Below the pieces are notes generated by a model, which saw only the letters and a program-made list of their open reading frames with translations, did not search any database and was not told the DNA's origin. Below are positions 4,741-8,998 of a stretch of 64,000 nucleotides of DNA, one piece after another. Made by a program: the position numbers and the translations under genes. Positions within the stretch are counted from its first letter, which is position 1, and each line of letters opens with the position of its first letter. This DNA comes from Bacteroidaceae bacterium (lineage in GTDB: Bacteria > Bacteroidota > Bacteroidia > Bacteroidales > Bacteroidaceae). The stretch covers positions 84,414 through 148,413 of the forward strand of contig JAFROT010000046.1 in NCBI GenBank assembly GCA_017429525.1. Direction: 5' to 3'.

Positions 4741-4792
4741 AAAAGAGCATGCAAGGAGCGTCTATTTCGGTAAAAATAGGCGCTCCTTGCAT
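4741..4792 (-). terminator. Terminator of the nucleic-acid locus operon
   Basis: The 19-base arms 4749-4767 and 4774-4792 (ATGCAAGGAGCG... / ...CGCTCCTTGCAT) pair with a single G-U and a 6-base loop. On the minus strand the hairpin is followed shortly by CTCTTTTTAC. It lies 44 bases past the nuclease stop codon. Confidence 0.85.
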
Positions 4793-4835: not shown

Positions 4836-5735
4836 TTACTGGAATCCCCAGGCGGTCTTGACGACTTGCGATTCCACTTGTCTCTCAATGTGGTCGGGCA
4901 GGTTACAGAAGAAGTCGATGTCGGTGAGGGCTTCCAACTGATCGATGCTGACGATGTAGGGCGACAGGTTTTTCTCGTCCTCATAGAAAGAGCGGTGCTG
5001 CATCCAGAAGCCGATGGCCTTGTAGCCACCGTTCGTGGCGTTCTTGTTTTTGCAGAGGATGGCCATGAAGAAGTACTTGGGCACGAGCAGCTGCAAGGCT
5101 GTTCCCCTGCGAGCATATTCCAGGATTTGGTCGTCCTTATCGATGGTGCCGCCTTTGACTACGTAGAGCGTGTCGCGGAAATCAGCTGTATTCCAGGAAC
5201 GTATCTTCATCTCGAGGTTGGCCCAGATGCCGCCGTTGAAGCTGTAGAGTTGCGGCTGCATGTTGGAGTAGAGGAAGGTCTGCCGGTTGGCTTCGAGCGA
5301 GTTCCAACGGTCGGCCGATGCGATGATGTGTCCGCGCGTGTAGCCCGAACCGCTGTAGTGACTACTTGTGGTGCGATACACCTCGGGGATGTCGTAGTCC
5401 TCCATGAAGTTGTCCTCACGCTTGATGTAGCCTCCGCTGTTCGTGTTGTCCCAACGGAATGCTGTCCAGCGCTGCGCTTTCTTTGCGAGGCTCCATTCTA
5501 TGCAGTAGTTGACCTGCCCCGAACTCAAACGCTTGACGAGAAACATATTCGCCACGCCCCCCGCCAGCTTCGGCATTTCCATCCGTCCGGCTTCGGGGTG
5601 CTCGGCTGTTTTGTTGGCATTGGTGTTGATGGTGAGTGGGTCTTTGTTGTCGTCGTCGTCCGACGAGCAGCCCCAGAAGCACAGCGGCAGGAATGTTACG
5701 AGCAGGAATAACGAGTGTAGTGTTTGTCTATACAT
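4836..5735 (-). CDS. DNA/RNA non-specific endonuclease, lipoprotein
   Basis: 299 residues when started at the ATG that opens a lipoprotein signal peptide (lipobox FWGC, Cys23); an upstream extension of the frame only overlaps the RAYT gene. Residues ~130-142 read GYTRGHIIASADR, the DRGH-type active site of the NUC1/Serratia nuclease family (catalytic His ~136; the usual Asp is Thr here). FLYSNMQPQ and IWANLE follow as the metal-binding and second helix motifs. It would cleave DNA and RNA at the cell surface. Its start overlaps the RAYT stop by 8 bases, and it is the last gene of the operon that begins with the TonB receptor. The Asp-to-Thr change is a visible oddity. Confidence 0.88.
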   Translation of the reverse strand: MYRQTLHSLFLLVTFLPLCFWGCSSDDDDNKDPLTINTNANKTAEHPEAGRMEMPKLAGGVANMFLVKRLSSGQVNYCIEWSLAKKAQRWTAFRWDNTNSGGYIKREDNFMEDYDIPEVYRTTSSHYSGSGYTRGHIIASADRWNSLEANRQTFLYSNMQPQLYSFNGGIWANLEMKIRSWNTADFRDTLYVVKGGTIDKDDQILEYARRGTALQLLVPKYFFMAILCKNKNATNGGYKAIGFWMQHRSFYEDEKNLSPYIVSIDQLEALTDIDFFCNLPDHIERQVESQVVKTAWGFQ

Positions 5736-6834
5736 ATTGTGATTCTTTTTGATGAGTATGGGTAATATCCCACGCCAGGGCATTAAGTACATTACATTCA
5801 TCACGGGAGACTTTTCGACGTTCGCTCCGATGAGGAAACGGAGAAAGAAGCAGCAGACGTCCCTCTGCCGTTGCATAGAAACGTTCACCTTTAGGCTTTG
5901 ACATCGGGTCGAGGCCATTGTCGAGAAGCACGATGAGTGGCAACTTGAGATCGAAGGCGGCTCGCATGATGGCTTTCTCGCCAGGAGAAATAGCAGGGGA
6001 GACCAGGACGGCTCCCTCCTGTGCAGACGCGAGGAGGCGTTGCTTCTCTTGTTCCAGCAATTCCGGGGCAATGCTTCTTGAAATGCGTACCTGCAGCAAC
6101 TGCTCAGCTTGCAGCAGCTGCTGATTTCCGACCAAGGAGCACTTGCGCCCGCAAATATCGACATCCGGCCGAACGGTCAGCAGGTCTGGATGGGCCCGTT
6201 TCATGGCAAGACGATAGGGATTGTCGGCGAGGTATGCTCGAAGTGTATCGAGTTGACCGGCGTGGAGGAGGATGCGGTCGTGGTAGCCGCGTTCAAAGAG
6301 GAAGCCGGCGTTGCCTGTGGACGTTGATGGTTGGGGAGGGGGTTGTTGGACGTGCTGTTGGGTGTGTTGCTGTATTACAGCAATTGAGTTTGGTTGCTGT
6401 GGTACAGCAACACACTCAACTGAGGATGAGAGGAGGCTGCGATAGGCTTTGTTGCAACCTTGCTTGAAGCCGAGGACGACTTTCCCCAGACCAACTTCCA
6501 GACGGCGTTCCACGAAGATGATTCCATGGATATGGTCTGGCATGAGTTGAAATCCCAGGACGGAAACCTCTGGATGATAGCGTGGGATATCCTTCCACGC
6601 CTTCGCCACGGCCTCACCGAGCGGCGTCGGGACAAGATGGGGCCACTCTGGAGTGCCTCGCTGTGCCGTGACATCTCCTTCCAATCGACCAAGCAACGGG
6701 CGCCGACCTTCCACCGCAATCGTAATCATGTAGATGCGACGCTCATGGTAGTCTTGGTCTACAGCTCGCCTCTTCATCGATGGCTGTGTCGGGCCAGCAT
6801 ATTTCTGCTGTTTAGCGTAGTCTTGGCGGTTCAT
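5728..6834 (-). CDS. RAYT-type HUH transposase (Y1_Tnp) fused to a DprA/SLOG-like C-terminal domain
   Basis: 368 residues from the ATG at 6834; ATG 6885 and a TTG at 6933 are alternatives but lie in a hairpin. Residues ~20-220 are an IS200/REP-associated tyrosine transposase domain: KRRAVDQDYHERRIYM, HUH motif MPDHIHG (His101, His103), and catalytic Tyr184 in ERGYHDRIL. A Gln/Pro-rich stretch (~139-170) interrupts this domain just before the Tyr. Residues ~222-357 resemble the SLOG/DprA nucleotide-binding fold: EGAVLVSPAISPGEKAIM, LPLIVLLDNG, then GRLLLLSPFP. HUH enzymes nick and rejoin single-stranded DNA at hairpins; DprA binds single-stranded DNA. The gene lies inside a nuclease/TonB operon and overlaps the nuclease start by 8 bases. 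The fusion is seen in sequence; its job is unknown. Confidence 0.8.
   Translation of the reverse strand: MNRQDYAKQQKYAGPTQPSMKRRAVDQDYHERRIYMITIAVEGRRPLLGRLEGDVTAQRGTPEWPHLVPTPLGEAVAKAWKDIPRYHPEVSVLGFQLMPDHIHGIIFVERRLEVGLGKVVLGFKQGCNKAYRSLLSSSVECVAVPQQPNSIAVIQQHTQQHVQQPPPQPSTSTGNAGFLFERGYHDRILLHAGQLDTLRAYLADNPYRLAMKRAHPDLLTVRPDVDICGRKCSLVGNQQLLQAEQLLQVRISRSIAPELLEQEKQRLLASAQEGAVLVSPAISPGEKAIMRAAFDLKLPLIVLLDNGLDPMSKPKGERFYATAEGRLLLLSPFPHRSERRKVSRDECNVLNALAWDITHTHQKESQYV
6363..6414. repeat. Nested inverted repeats inside the RAYT gene
   Basis: TGTGTTGCTGTA (6363-6374) and TACAGCAACACA (6403-6414) are exact complements. The core TTGCTGTA/TACAGCAA also recurs between them, so several alternative hairpins form. 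The DNA is in frame and encodes the Gln-rich linker of the RAYT protein, as if a REP-like sequence had inserted there. Confidence 0.7.
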
Positions 6835-6876: not shown

Positions 6877-6929
6877 ATCCGTCATCTTTGCAGCTTTGTG
6901 TTCTCGCACGAGCTGCAATGATGACGGAT
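6877..6929. repeat. REP-like hairpin at the 5' end of the RAYT gene
   Basis: ATCCGTCATCTTTGCAGCT (6877-6895) pairs with AGCTGCAATGATGACGGAT (6911-6929) with one mismatch in 19 and a 15-base loop. RAYT transposases recognise such hairpins next to their own gene, so this is a candidate substrate. Confidence 0.65.
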
Positions 6930-6946: not shown

Positions 6947-8998
6947 TTACTTCTTGGTGATGGTGAAGTCGTCAATGAGGAGGTCGGTGCCAGTGGTCTT
7001 CGAGTTCATGACGACGAGGCAGACGGTTGTCTTCGAGGAGAGTGTGAAGCTATATTTAACCTGTTGCCAGTCTTGGTCGATGTCATTGACATATTTGTTC
7101 TTTCCATCTTCACCTTTGTCATAGTTGTAGGTGATGCTTGAACCGACGGCGGCGTAGCCTGGGCAGAGGCTTGCAGCAGAGCTGGTTGCTGCTTTCGTCC
7201 AGAAGGCGCAGTCGTAGGTGCCGGCCTCAAGCTCCAGTTCCTTATAAGCCAAGCGCTTATTGCCGGAGGTGGAGCCTTTGACTATCACGGAATAGCTGCC
7301 GCCATGAGCATCTGTGCTCTGGGAGAGGGTAGCGTTGCTGGCAGTGGAAACACTCTTCCAACCTATGGGCTGATTGCCTTCCCACGTCTCGAAGTCACCA
7401 TTAGTGAAGTCGGCGAGAGAAGAGCCGCCGGGAGTGTCGCCACCACCACCTTCACCTCCTTCGAGGATCTGAACGTCGGCGTTCTTGATTTCGGGCGTTA
7501 CATTACCATCTTTGACGAACTTCATGAGCTGGCCAGTAATCTTCACTTTCATGCCAACCTTGAATGCGCTGACGCCTTCGGGGAGGTTAGCCCAATAAGC
7601 CTCAAAGACACGACCGCCATCCTGTGTGTCGGCCATCCAGAACGACTGCTGGTCGCGGCTGACATTGCCTATGACCTCGGTGATATAGCCAGAAACGGTG
7701 TAAGTCTCTGAAGATGTGGCTCCGTCGGCCAATGCGTTGGTCAGTTCTACGGCCTGTGCGCAGGTGACTTCGGTGCCGGTGGGTGCGGGCGTGTCGCCAC
7801 CACCTTCTTCAAGGATAATGACGGTTGCATTCTTGATTTCGGGTGTTACGTTGCCATCCTTGACGTACTTCATCAGTTGGCCAGTAATCTTAACCTTGCT
7901 TCCTTTCTTGAATGCGCTGACGCCCTCGGGGAGATTAGCCCAGTAGGCTTCAAAGACGCGGCCACCATCTTTCGTGTCGGCCATCCAGAATGTCTGTTGG
8001 TCGCGGCTTACGTTGCCTACGACTTCGGTGATGTAACCAGTGACGGTGTAGGTCTCAGTAGAAGTGGCGCCGTCGGCGAGTGCGTTCGTGAGTGTTACGG
8101 CTTCGGCACAGGTCACGGCGATACCTTCAGCCGGCGTCTCTTCACCACCTTCCTCCAGGATCTCAACAGTTGGGTTCTTGATTTCGGGCGTTACCTGACC
8201 TGTGTTCGTGTTGACGTACTTCATGAGTTGTCCGGTAATCTTCACCTTGCTGCCGACCTTGAATTCACTGACGCCTTCGGGGAGGTTAGCCCAGTAAGCT
8301 TCAAAGACACGGCCACCGTCCTTCGTGTCGGCCATCCAGAATGTCTGTTGGTCGCGGCTTACGTTGCCTACGACTTCGGTGATATAGCCGGTTATGGTAT
8401 AGGTTTCAGCCGATGTGCCACCATCAGCCAGAGCTTTAGTCAGCTCAACGGCTTCAGCACAGGTTACTTCGATGCCTTCTGCCGGCGTCTCGCCTCCGCT
8501 GCTGTTGATGGAATAGACATAGGCTTGTCCCTTTCCGACGGTTTCGGGTGTGTTGCCCCTGTAGTTTACGACTTTACCATAAACGATTACCTCGTCGCCA
8601 ACTTTGATTTGGTCGACAGACGTGAATCTCTTGTTGCCCGGTCCATAGACTTGGAAAGCGGTGAATGTGCTGGTGGGATTACCCTCGTCGTACATCGTGA
8701 AGGTCATGTTGCCATACTGGGATATGGTAGCGTCTGAGGTGCTGTTGGCAGCCACCTTTCCTTTGATGTAATAGGCCTGATCAGATTCCACATCAGCCTC
8801 CATCTCTCTGACGAGAGCAAGACAAGCGGCCACGTTGAACGGATCGTCGAGCGTGCCGCTGCCGGAGGGCTCTACTTCGATAGGTGTTTCGCCACCTTGA
8901 TCGGTCGGGATGTTGTAGGGCTCTGGCACGTCCTCACATGCTGTGAATGCTCCTACTGTGAGTGCTGCGCATAGCAGCAGTTTCCAATACTTTTTCAT
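6947..8998 (-). CDS. Lipoprotein with four OB-like units (three near-identical) and a C-terminal jelly-roll-like domain
   Basis: 683 residues from the ATG of MKKYWKLLLC (an in-frame ATG 7 codons upstream is possible). Lipobox AFTAC. Residues ~45-165 form a first OB-like unit (QAYYIKGKVAANS, VGDEVIVYGKVVNY). Three tandem ~116-residue units follow, each with VTCAEAVELT, YTVTGYITEVVGNVSRDQQ, FWMADTKDGGRVFEAYW, KVKITGQLMK and PEIKN. The last ~150 residues start FTNGDFETWEG and end LLIDDFTITKK, like a carbohydrate-binding or discoidin-type jelly roll. OB folds commonly bind nucleic acids or sugars. It lies between the RAYT gene and a DUF5689 lipoprotein in the TonB-receptor operon, so it may be a surface ligand-binding partner. 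That role is inferred. Confidence 0.75.
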   Translation of the reverse strand: MKKYWKLLLCAALTVGAFTACEDVPEPYNIPTDQGGETPIEVEPSGSGTLDDPFNVAACLALVREMEADVESDQAYYIKGKVAANSTSDATISQYGNMTFTMYDEGNPTSTFTAFQVYGPGNKRFTSVDQIKVGDEVIVYGKVVNYRGNTPETVGKGQAYVYSINSSGGETPAEGIEVTCAEAVELTKALADGGTSAETYTITGYITEVVGNVSRDQQTFWMADTKDGGRVFEAYWANLPEGVSEFKVGSKVKITGQLMKYVNTNTGQVTPEIKNPTVEILEEGGEETPAEGIAVTCAEAVTLTNALADGATSTETYTVTGYITEVVGNVSRDQQTFWMADTKDGGRVFEAYWANLPEGVSAFKKGSKVKITGQLMKYVKDGNVTPEIKNATVIILEEGGGDTPAPTGTEVTCAQAVELTNALADGATSSETYTVSGYITEVIGNVSRDQQSFWMADTQDGGRVFEAYWANLPEGVSAFKVGMKVKITGQLMKFVKDGNVTPEIKNADVQILEGGEGGGGDTPGGSSLADFTNGDFETWEGNQPIGWKSVSTASNATLSQSTDAHGGSYSVIVKGSTSGNKRLAYKELELEAGTYDCAFWTKAATSSAASLCPGYAAVGSSITYNYDKGEDGKNKYVNDIDQDWQQVKYSFTLSSKTTVCLVVMNSKTTGTDLLIDDFTITKK
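7440..8485. repeat. Three tandem ~350-bp coding repeats
   Basis: Units at about 8137-8485, 7789-8136 and 7440-7788 encode near-identical OB-like domains. Identity is high at DNA level as well, with long shared blocks around the GNVSRDQQ and ANLPEGVS codons, pointing to recent duplication or gene conversion. Copy number may vary between strains. Confidence 0.85.

Follow-up and report, generated by a model that had tools for sequence, protein, structure and literature searches.

The window analyzed here is a stretch of 64,000 nucleotides from the genome of a Bacteroidaceae bacterium (GCA_017429525.1, contig JAFROT010000046.1, positions 84,414 to 148,413). It contains a gene whose predicted protein joins an N-terminal half resembling REP-associated tyrosine transposases (RAYTs, or TnpA-REP proteins) to a C-terminal half resembling DprA and other SLOG proteins, and this gene carries within its own coding sequence a pair of hairpins resembling repetitive extragenic palindromes (REPs) (Table 1). 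The transposase gene is flanked by a gene for an OB-fold/DUF5689-like lipoprotein and by a nuclease gene; its 3′ end, with the stop codon, shares 8 nucleotides with the start of the nuclease gene (5728-5735, ATGTATAG). The open reading frame was confirmed as real and comprises 368 codons plus a stop; an in-frame TTG further upstream would lengthen the protein to 401 residues. The family names given to the neighbors (OB-fold/DUF5689-like lipoprotein, nuclease and TonB) are those that we presume from their sequences, and homology between loci was tested separately.

Table 1. Coordinates of the transposase gene, its predicted functional parts and adjacent features, in window positions.
Feature	Position	Strand	Details
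RAYT-like protein (HUH, one Tyr) with DprA/SLOG-like C-terminal half	5728..6834	minus	368 residues; REP_Tyr_transpos match, alignments
HUH motif M98-P-D-H101-I-H103	6526..6543	minus	H101 and H103 invariant in both alignments
Inverted pair of REP-like hairpins (REPIN-like), in frame in the HUH-Tyr linker	6357..6420		stems 6366-6384 and 6393-6411
Y201-L-A-D-N205-P206, predicted catalytic Tyr and presumed third metal ligand N205	6217..6234	minus	invariant; role as in the accessible text of PMC6006769
DprA/SLOG-like domain, residues 222-360	5755..6171	minus	profile searches; nuclease alignment as negative control
Nuclease gene	4836..5735	minus	start overlaps transposase stop; homologues without an upstream transposase exist
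Terminator-like inverted repeat 3′ of the OB-fold lipoprotein gene	6877..6929		19-nt arms, 95% complementary

A preliminary description of this locus had placed an HUH site and a catalytic tyrosine in the N-terminal half of the protein. This assignment is borne out by alignments of relatives, in which H101, H103, Y201, N205 and P206 are invariant (alignment A2, n = 28 sequences; alignment A5, n = 75). D100 is likewise invariant among the 75 sequences of A5, which gives the motif the form DHxH, and the tyrosine that matches the family signature is Y201 rather than the one in GYHD. The arrangement Y---NP, with an asparagine four residues past the tyrosine, is described as the signature of class 2 (TnpA-REP) transposases of the TnpA-Y1 family by Quentin et al. 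2018 (PMC6006769), and the window protein carries both this signature and the HUH motif. Its scores against established models are below threshold, with 28.6 bits (1.1e-6) against a cut-off of 80 for NCBIfam REP_Tyr_transpos and 12.8 against a cut-off of 23 for Pfam Y1_Tnp. The protein is a divergent relative and not a member of the REP_Tyr_transpos model.

The gene is one of seven copies in its own genome, and the six paralogues are 36-47% identical to the window protein. Low copy number, low identity between copies in one genome, and REP-like hairpins near or in the gene are all traits shared with class 2 as portrayed in the accessible parts of PMC6006769. The differences from that class are the C-terminal domain (the term 'dpra' is absent from the accessible text of that source), the lack of a W before the Y motif, and a one-sided hairpin head, GTNNNGTNTG, where class 2 has GT[AG]G. 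Subclass 2.4 is the closest match within this source, being characterized there by a variable insertion between the HUH and Y motifs that holds in-frame REPs and by its occurrence in Bacteroidetes among other groups. Those proteins have NH[IFV]H, WQ and YIxNNP, a median length of 194 residues, and no distal domain among the traits listed there, whereas the proteins studied here have DHxH, no W, Y[LIV]xDNP, about 370 residues, and the C-terminal domain in 80 of 80 relatives. Because the motif is DHxH with D100 invariant and no W precedes the Y motif, and given the added domain, we rejected filing the window protein in subclass 2.4.

A scan of genome contigs with profile A3 yielded 491 relatives, and the best 80 of these were retained. 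Both halves occur in a single open reading frame in every one of the 80, two of which (L040 and L075) are truncated by the end of their contig. The record titles mostly name Bacteroidales or families within it; four lie outside, naming Verrucomicrobia (two), Lentisphaerae and Kiritimatiellia. In the genus, 36 of 61 genomes have a match to the transposase, and a sample of 296 mostly complete genomes from the phylum contains the fusion in the genome carrying the window alone. The fusion is therefore common in the genus and rare in the phylum sample, and the earlier suggestion that it may be widespread was well founded. Among openly licensed PMC papers, we found none whose title or abstract describes a RAYT or SLOG fusion of this kind, and as far as that literature goes the RAYT-DprA fusion is a new domain architecture for the family.

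The preliminary description also noted a pattern in the C-terminal half that recalls SLOG and DprA proteins. The pattern exists, and mean column identity is 64% over this region (80 sequences) compared with 35% over the full-length alignment (75). The profile test of the resemblance succeeded weakly with a single sequence and better with the alignment. With the single window domain, no Pfam family matched, and a PADLOC search returned PsyrA at 0.012. When the C-terminal alignment was compared with the PDB, three Helicobacter pylori DprA sequences came out on top (E 0.021-0.023; next match 0.27), in a match spanning G(N/D)xxLL, the first strand with its basic loop, and the sequence up to GAVLVS. 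Profile A4, which was built from 80 sequences, had matches in 4 of the 296 phylum genomes. Beyond the seven copies in the genome carrying the window, these included a PsyrA-type protein of 675 residues with two DprA regions (E 3.4e-9), a true DprA (E 2.9e-5) and, in G063, a short frame containing stops. The 675-residue protein, encoded at locus L240, scores 1.1e-149 as the PsyrA of PADLOC. A profile-profile comparison (hhalign) with 20 DprA proteins of the phylum gave 91 collinear columns at E 1.5e-4, and the nuclease alignment, used as a negative control, gave 0.1% probability.

Relative to DprA and PsyrA, the same elements appear in the same order, namely G(N/D)xxLL, a first strand followed by a basic (S/T)R(R), a GAVLVS strand and a PLIvL..G strand. 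The SR at residues 252-253 aligns with GTRR of H. pylori DprA, and the family-consensus SRR (in the window, R253 followed by S254) falls on both arginines of that sequence; the chain positions in the PDB alignment agree with R48/R49 numbering for one of the three chains. DprA binds single-stranded DNA and loads RecA, and the R48A/R49A double mutant of the H. pylori protein binds single-stranded DNA about 50-fold less well, according to the accessible text of PMC4489622. Homology over the core Rossmann part is of moderate strength by profile searches. In contrast to DprA, the domain ends before the VVES...GGAMITA...VFAVPG strands, has no winged helix, and is fused behind a nuclease. These comparisons suggest that the C-terminal half is very probably a truncated SLOG-like domain, related to DprA without being DprA.

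The two hairpins within the window gene have stems of 7-8 bp and loops of 3 nucleotides, and the arms of the pair are 27 nucleotides long and 89% complementary. The strand carrying the pair folds at -23 kcal/mol (z -6.9; 0 of 200 shuffles), and a search of the window with the hairpin pattern at no more than three mismatches gave 4 matches compared with 0.22 expected, two of which are the pair itself. Related genes have similar structures at the same place. After three of 110 distinct genes were dropped for missing motifs, 107 distinct relatives with both motifs were available, and 46 of these have a perfect hairpin (at least 8 bp, 3-nt loop) between the HUH and Y motifs, compared with a mean of 0.62 and a maximum of 3 after codon shuffling. 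By the same measure, hairpins are found ahead of the HUH motif in 7 of 107 genes (0.59 shuffled) and in the C-terminal part in 2 of 107 (0.99 shuffled). The linker hairpins are read in one frame in 53 of 57 cases, typically as VAxxxQ. One relative, L078, has an array of five near-identical in-frame hairpins (GCTGCGGC) in the linker of a single gene. REPs at this linker position are not new, because in-frame REPs in a variable HUH-Y insertion are already a reported trait of subclass 2.4 in the portions of PMC6006769 that are accessible. What are new relative to that subclass are the hairpin stems, their head and the fused domain.

Copies of these hairpins are dispersed in genomes of the genus. 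The window stem, TTGCTGTNNNACAGCAA, occurs 10 times in its own genome (control 0) and at 22 sites in the 61 genus genomes (control 2). Three further stems were counted in the same set: TTGCGAC, with 42 sites in 17 genomes; TTGCGTT, with 18 sites in 7 genomes; and CTGCGGC, with 10 sites confined to G000 and G042, both of which have such a stem in a transposase gene (control 0 for each). Outside transposase genes, TTGCGAC is found in 16 genomes, and all 16 have a transposase, compared with 20 of the 45 others (Fisher 3.6e-5). When the four stems are united, 20 of the 24 genomes that have them outside transposase genes also have a transposase, compared with 16 of the 37 others (p 0.0018). The window, TTGCGAC and TTGCGTT stems share the one-sided head, with 80-100% agreement per fixed position. 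For this count, each site was oriented by how well it fitted a motif derived from these very sites, without a shuffled control.

In relatives from the gut and rumen, hairpin copies lie inside the export-signal parts of other genes. Sites outside transposase genes in the 61 genus genomes were scored as lying in a signal peptide if an ATG occurred within 28 codons together with a basic residue and a hydrophobic stretch, a rule that accepts 904 of 16,981 random places (5.3%) in the same loci. Of the window-type sites, 12 of 18 lie in signal peptides (binomial 6.8e-12), five of the eight outside the transposase gene in the window's own genome among them; the binomial values count recurring orthologues, and the 12 sites represent nine gene families by eye. 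For TTGCGAC (binomial 0.0025), the rule accepts 8 of 36 sites and inspection leaves 7, L191 having been dropped by hand as unlike a signal peptide. TTGCGTT has no convincing case (1 of 13 by rule, and 0 of 13 once L169 was dropped on the same grounds), and CTGCGGC has 0 of 5. Pfam searches with ten of the 19 accepted proteins placed all ten in exported-type families: SusD (two), GH88, GH32, GH3 (two), an outer membrane efflux protein, Omp28, DUF4960 and DUF4964/DUF5127. The frame in which the hairpin is translated varies by stem, the window stem being read as CCCITAT or IAVSQQ and TTGCGAC as VATxSQ.

One gene with such a signal peptide, which encodes a GH88-type enzyme (query from L132), is present in 73 of 121 genus genomes, and 30 of its loci were fetched. 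In 11 of the 30, the signal peptide has at the same place a hairpin in which at least 7 of the 8 positions pair, with the stems GTTGCTGT, GTTGCGAC, GCTGCAAC and GTTGTGGT. In a set of 15 orthologues that were chosen for hairpin-like signal-peptide DNA, with the other 15 left out, 90.8% of cells over the 8 pairs are paired, compared with 21-68% in slid controls, and 20 cells are changed on both sides (0 of 500 shuffles). Two of five covariation measures, the number of both-side-changed pairs (31 of 500) and the number of pair types (467 of 500), are not clearly above shuffles. Orthologues that are 94-96% identical over the first 154 mature residues can have unrelated signal peptides without a hairpin (e.g., L250 and L252). 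Our reading is that signal-peptide cores have been exchanged, with different REPs among the replacements. Two other signal-peptide types occur in this gene. The 5′ ends at L252, L253, L255 and L257 have signal peptides of the type KLLFIIYHLLFIISA, with AT-rich, repeat-like coding sequence in place of the hairpin type, and this AT-rich repeat may be another signal-peptide module. The 5′ end at L254 has a different palindrome in its signal peptide, formed by TCCTCCCC and GGGGAGGA around the loop cttg.

Taken together, we consider it reasonable, at a probability of roughly 60%, that the window protein is a single-stranded DNA nuclease of the RAYT/TnpA-REP type, fused to a truncated DprA/SLOG domain, that works on a family of REP-like hairpins. 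The TnpA-REP protein of E. coli cuts single-stranded REP DNA beside the hairpin (accessible text of PMC8266576). The HUH-Tyr half would recognize a REP hairpin folded in single-stranded DNA, nick the DNA next to it and join strands again, and the DprA-like half might hold the single-stranded flank or pass it to host recombination. The putative targets would have the head on one side, a stem of 7-9 bp that varies between families, and a 3-nt loop. A hairpin of the family is carried in frame in the flexible HUH-Tyr linker of the gene itself, where it could serve for self-recognition, control the gene's own mRNA or be a passenger. Cutting and rejoining would occur at such hairpins on exposed single strands, and copies elsewhere would be retained at places where translating them does no harm or is of use, in particular in the hydrophobic core of signal peptides. 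Recognition of the hairpins by this protein, their spread by the transposase, and the role of the C-terminal half are proposed here by inference. The preliminary description had offered two functions, the processing of incoming single-stranded DNA and hairpin-directed genome editing; the latter is favored because the gene carries REP-like hairpins with dispersed copies, and the former fares poorly.

To our knowledge, no host function has been established for RAYTs, which are domesticated transposases. The fusion, its own in-frame hairpin and the signal-peptide copies would together suggest a concrete role, namely single-strand editing that alters protein export. They would also illustrate a selfish palindrome that is retained because its translation is useful, and if the tail is rightly likened to a recombination mediator, this variant would join such a domain to a RAYT. 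Perhaps the fusion even inserts hairpin cassettes, in frame, into the coding segments of signal peptides, making these cassettes mobile signal-peptide cores. This extension is speculative and we think it rather doubtful; under it, the export signals of polysaccharide-utilization proteins would be reshaped. Among openly licensed PMC papers, none has a title or abstract describing a REP family placed in signal peptides, and the closest case is a single Yersinia locus. There, a small repeat likewise supplies part of a signal peptide, and the accessible account differs in concerning one locus and another, 168-bp element with no link to a REP transposase. Palindromic repeats in frame are also known from REPs inside coding genes and from Rickettsia palindromic elements (Di Nocera et al. 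2013, PMC3733652); the accessible text of that paper highlights DNA repair genes and has no mention of signal peptides.

Several results weigh against the favored reading. No movement of any hairpin copy was seen. A perfect 8-bp, 3-nt-loop linker hairpin is lacking in 61 of the 107 genes, the CTGCGGC stem does not have the common head, and three stems taken alone are not significantly associated with the transposase among the genus genomes: the window stem (5 of 6 genomes, p 0.20), CTGCGGC (2 of 2, p 0.34) and TTGCGTT (2 of 5, p 0.91). The flanks of the 80 relatives, 634 kb in all, hold 28 such hairpins compared with 10.2 after shuffling, and 0 of these 28 lie in signal peptides. Few signal-peptide sites are expected in 634 kb because there are about 10 window-type sites per 3.3 Mb, and the result still limits the generality of the pattern. 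A second gene (query L120), present in 59 of 121 genomes, has the window hairpin in only 2 of 30 fetched signal peptides, those of the window's own genome and G041. With regard to the C-terminal half, a PDB search with the single window domain returned no DprA, Pfam DNA_processg_A matched only 1 of 21 members (0.082), and in one member an unrelated Pfam family outscored it. Furthermore, the hhalign probability for the DprA link reaches only 51%, and the last DprA strands are absent, the alignment ending at DprA column 123 of 208, where the protein itself ends.

Some of these weaknesses, namely the low single-sequence scores, the 51% probability and the missing terminal strands, would also fit a C-terminal half with another Rossmann-like fold or an unrelated one. 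We consider this unlikely, given that three separate profile routes reach DprA or PsyrA in the same register and the negative control was clean. The signal-peptide hairpins invite a different explanation, in which they are selected as RNA structures that control translation or mRNA decay, independently of the transposase, and resemble its hairpins through shared ancestry of a regulatory element. The GH88-type hairpin stays paired while its sequence changes, as such selection would have it, and one member of the unrelated L120 set (L335) has a signal peptide that forms an 8-bp hairpin of other sequence. The latter case also cautions that Ala/Val codons can form such stems by chance. However, identical stems occur in transposase linkers and in intergenic or other coding places, the conserved head lies on one side outside the stem, and nearly identical mature enzymes can have unrelated signal peptides that lack the hairpin. 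The RNA-based explanation seems improbable to us, if somewhat less so than a different fold for the C-terminal half.

An ordinary insertion sequence of the IS200/IS605 type would account for the HUH motif with one tyrosine, the seven copies in one genome and the patchy presence of the gene at one orthologous site, and the matches of the full alignment to PDB profiles are transposases of that group (E 0.023-0.12). We rejected this candidate as very unlikely because the copies in the window's genome are too diverged, at 36-47% identity against a mean of 99.4% reported for IS200 transposases (Table 1 of PMC6006769). Moreover, the Y motif is Y---NP rather than Y---Q, and the gene abuts its neighbors, with no room for element ends on the nuclease side. 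Even less probable, by a little, is the proposal of the preliminary description that the protein belongs to a DNA-uptake or DNA-processing module acting with the nuclease and TonB genes. The 8-nt overlap speaks for such a module, and in four close relatives (L038-L041) the nuclease gene likewise follows directly, so that the operon link holds locally. Related genes also lie within a homologous nuclease/DUF5689/TonB operon in L058 and L064, on the opposite strand, a placement that suggests separate arrivals at similar places. The link is not general, however. When flanks of up to 5 kb, some of them shorter, were searched for homologues of the nuclease, DUF5689, TonB and second nuclease genes, only 10 of the 80 relatives had any of the four, and 239 of 394 neighboring genes have no homologue among the other neighbors.

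The nuclease loci give a similar result when approached from the other side. The nuclease was found in 49 of the 61 genus genomes, and 30 loci were fetched, 29 of them assessable on the upstream side (L290 was left out because its contig begins inside the nuclease gene). Only 4 of the 29 have the transposase upstream (the window's own genome, G002, G017 and G028), and 25 do not. Seven nucleases at 68-85% identity lack it, and at three of them 93-213 bp separate the end of the OB-fold gene from the nuclease match. The transposase gene is thus an optional passenger of the operon; the placement of relatives led us to reject the uptake module, and a functional tie to DNA uptake is not borne out.

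Some further observations concern the surroundings of the gene and its relatives. At L283, a site without the transposase, a counterpart of the terminator-like inverted repeat downstream of the OB-fold lipoprotein gene is present. In L054, L061, L072 and L102, relatives lie directly between genes that are homologous among these four loci and that we take to encode type I restriction-modification subunits. Within the window, another terminator-like inverted repeat, with 19-nt arms that are 95% complementary and 6 nucleotides apart, lies downstream of the nuclease gene (4749-4792). The OB-fold lipoprotein gene next door contains three tandem copies of about 300 nucleotides (7453-8451) that are 100, 81 and 70% alike.

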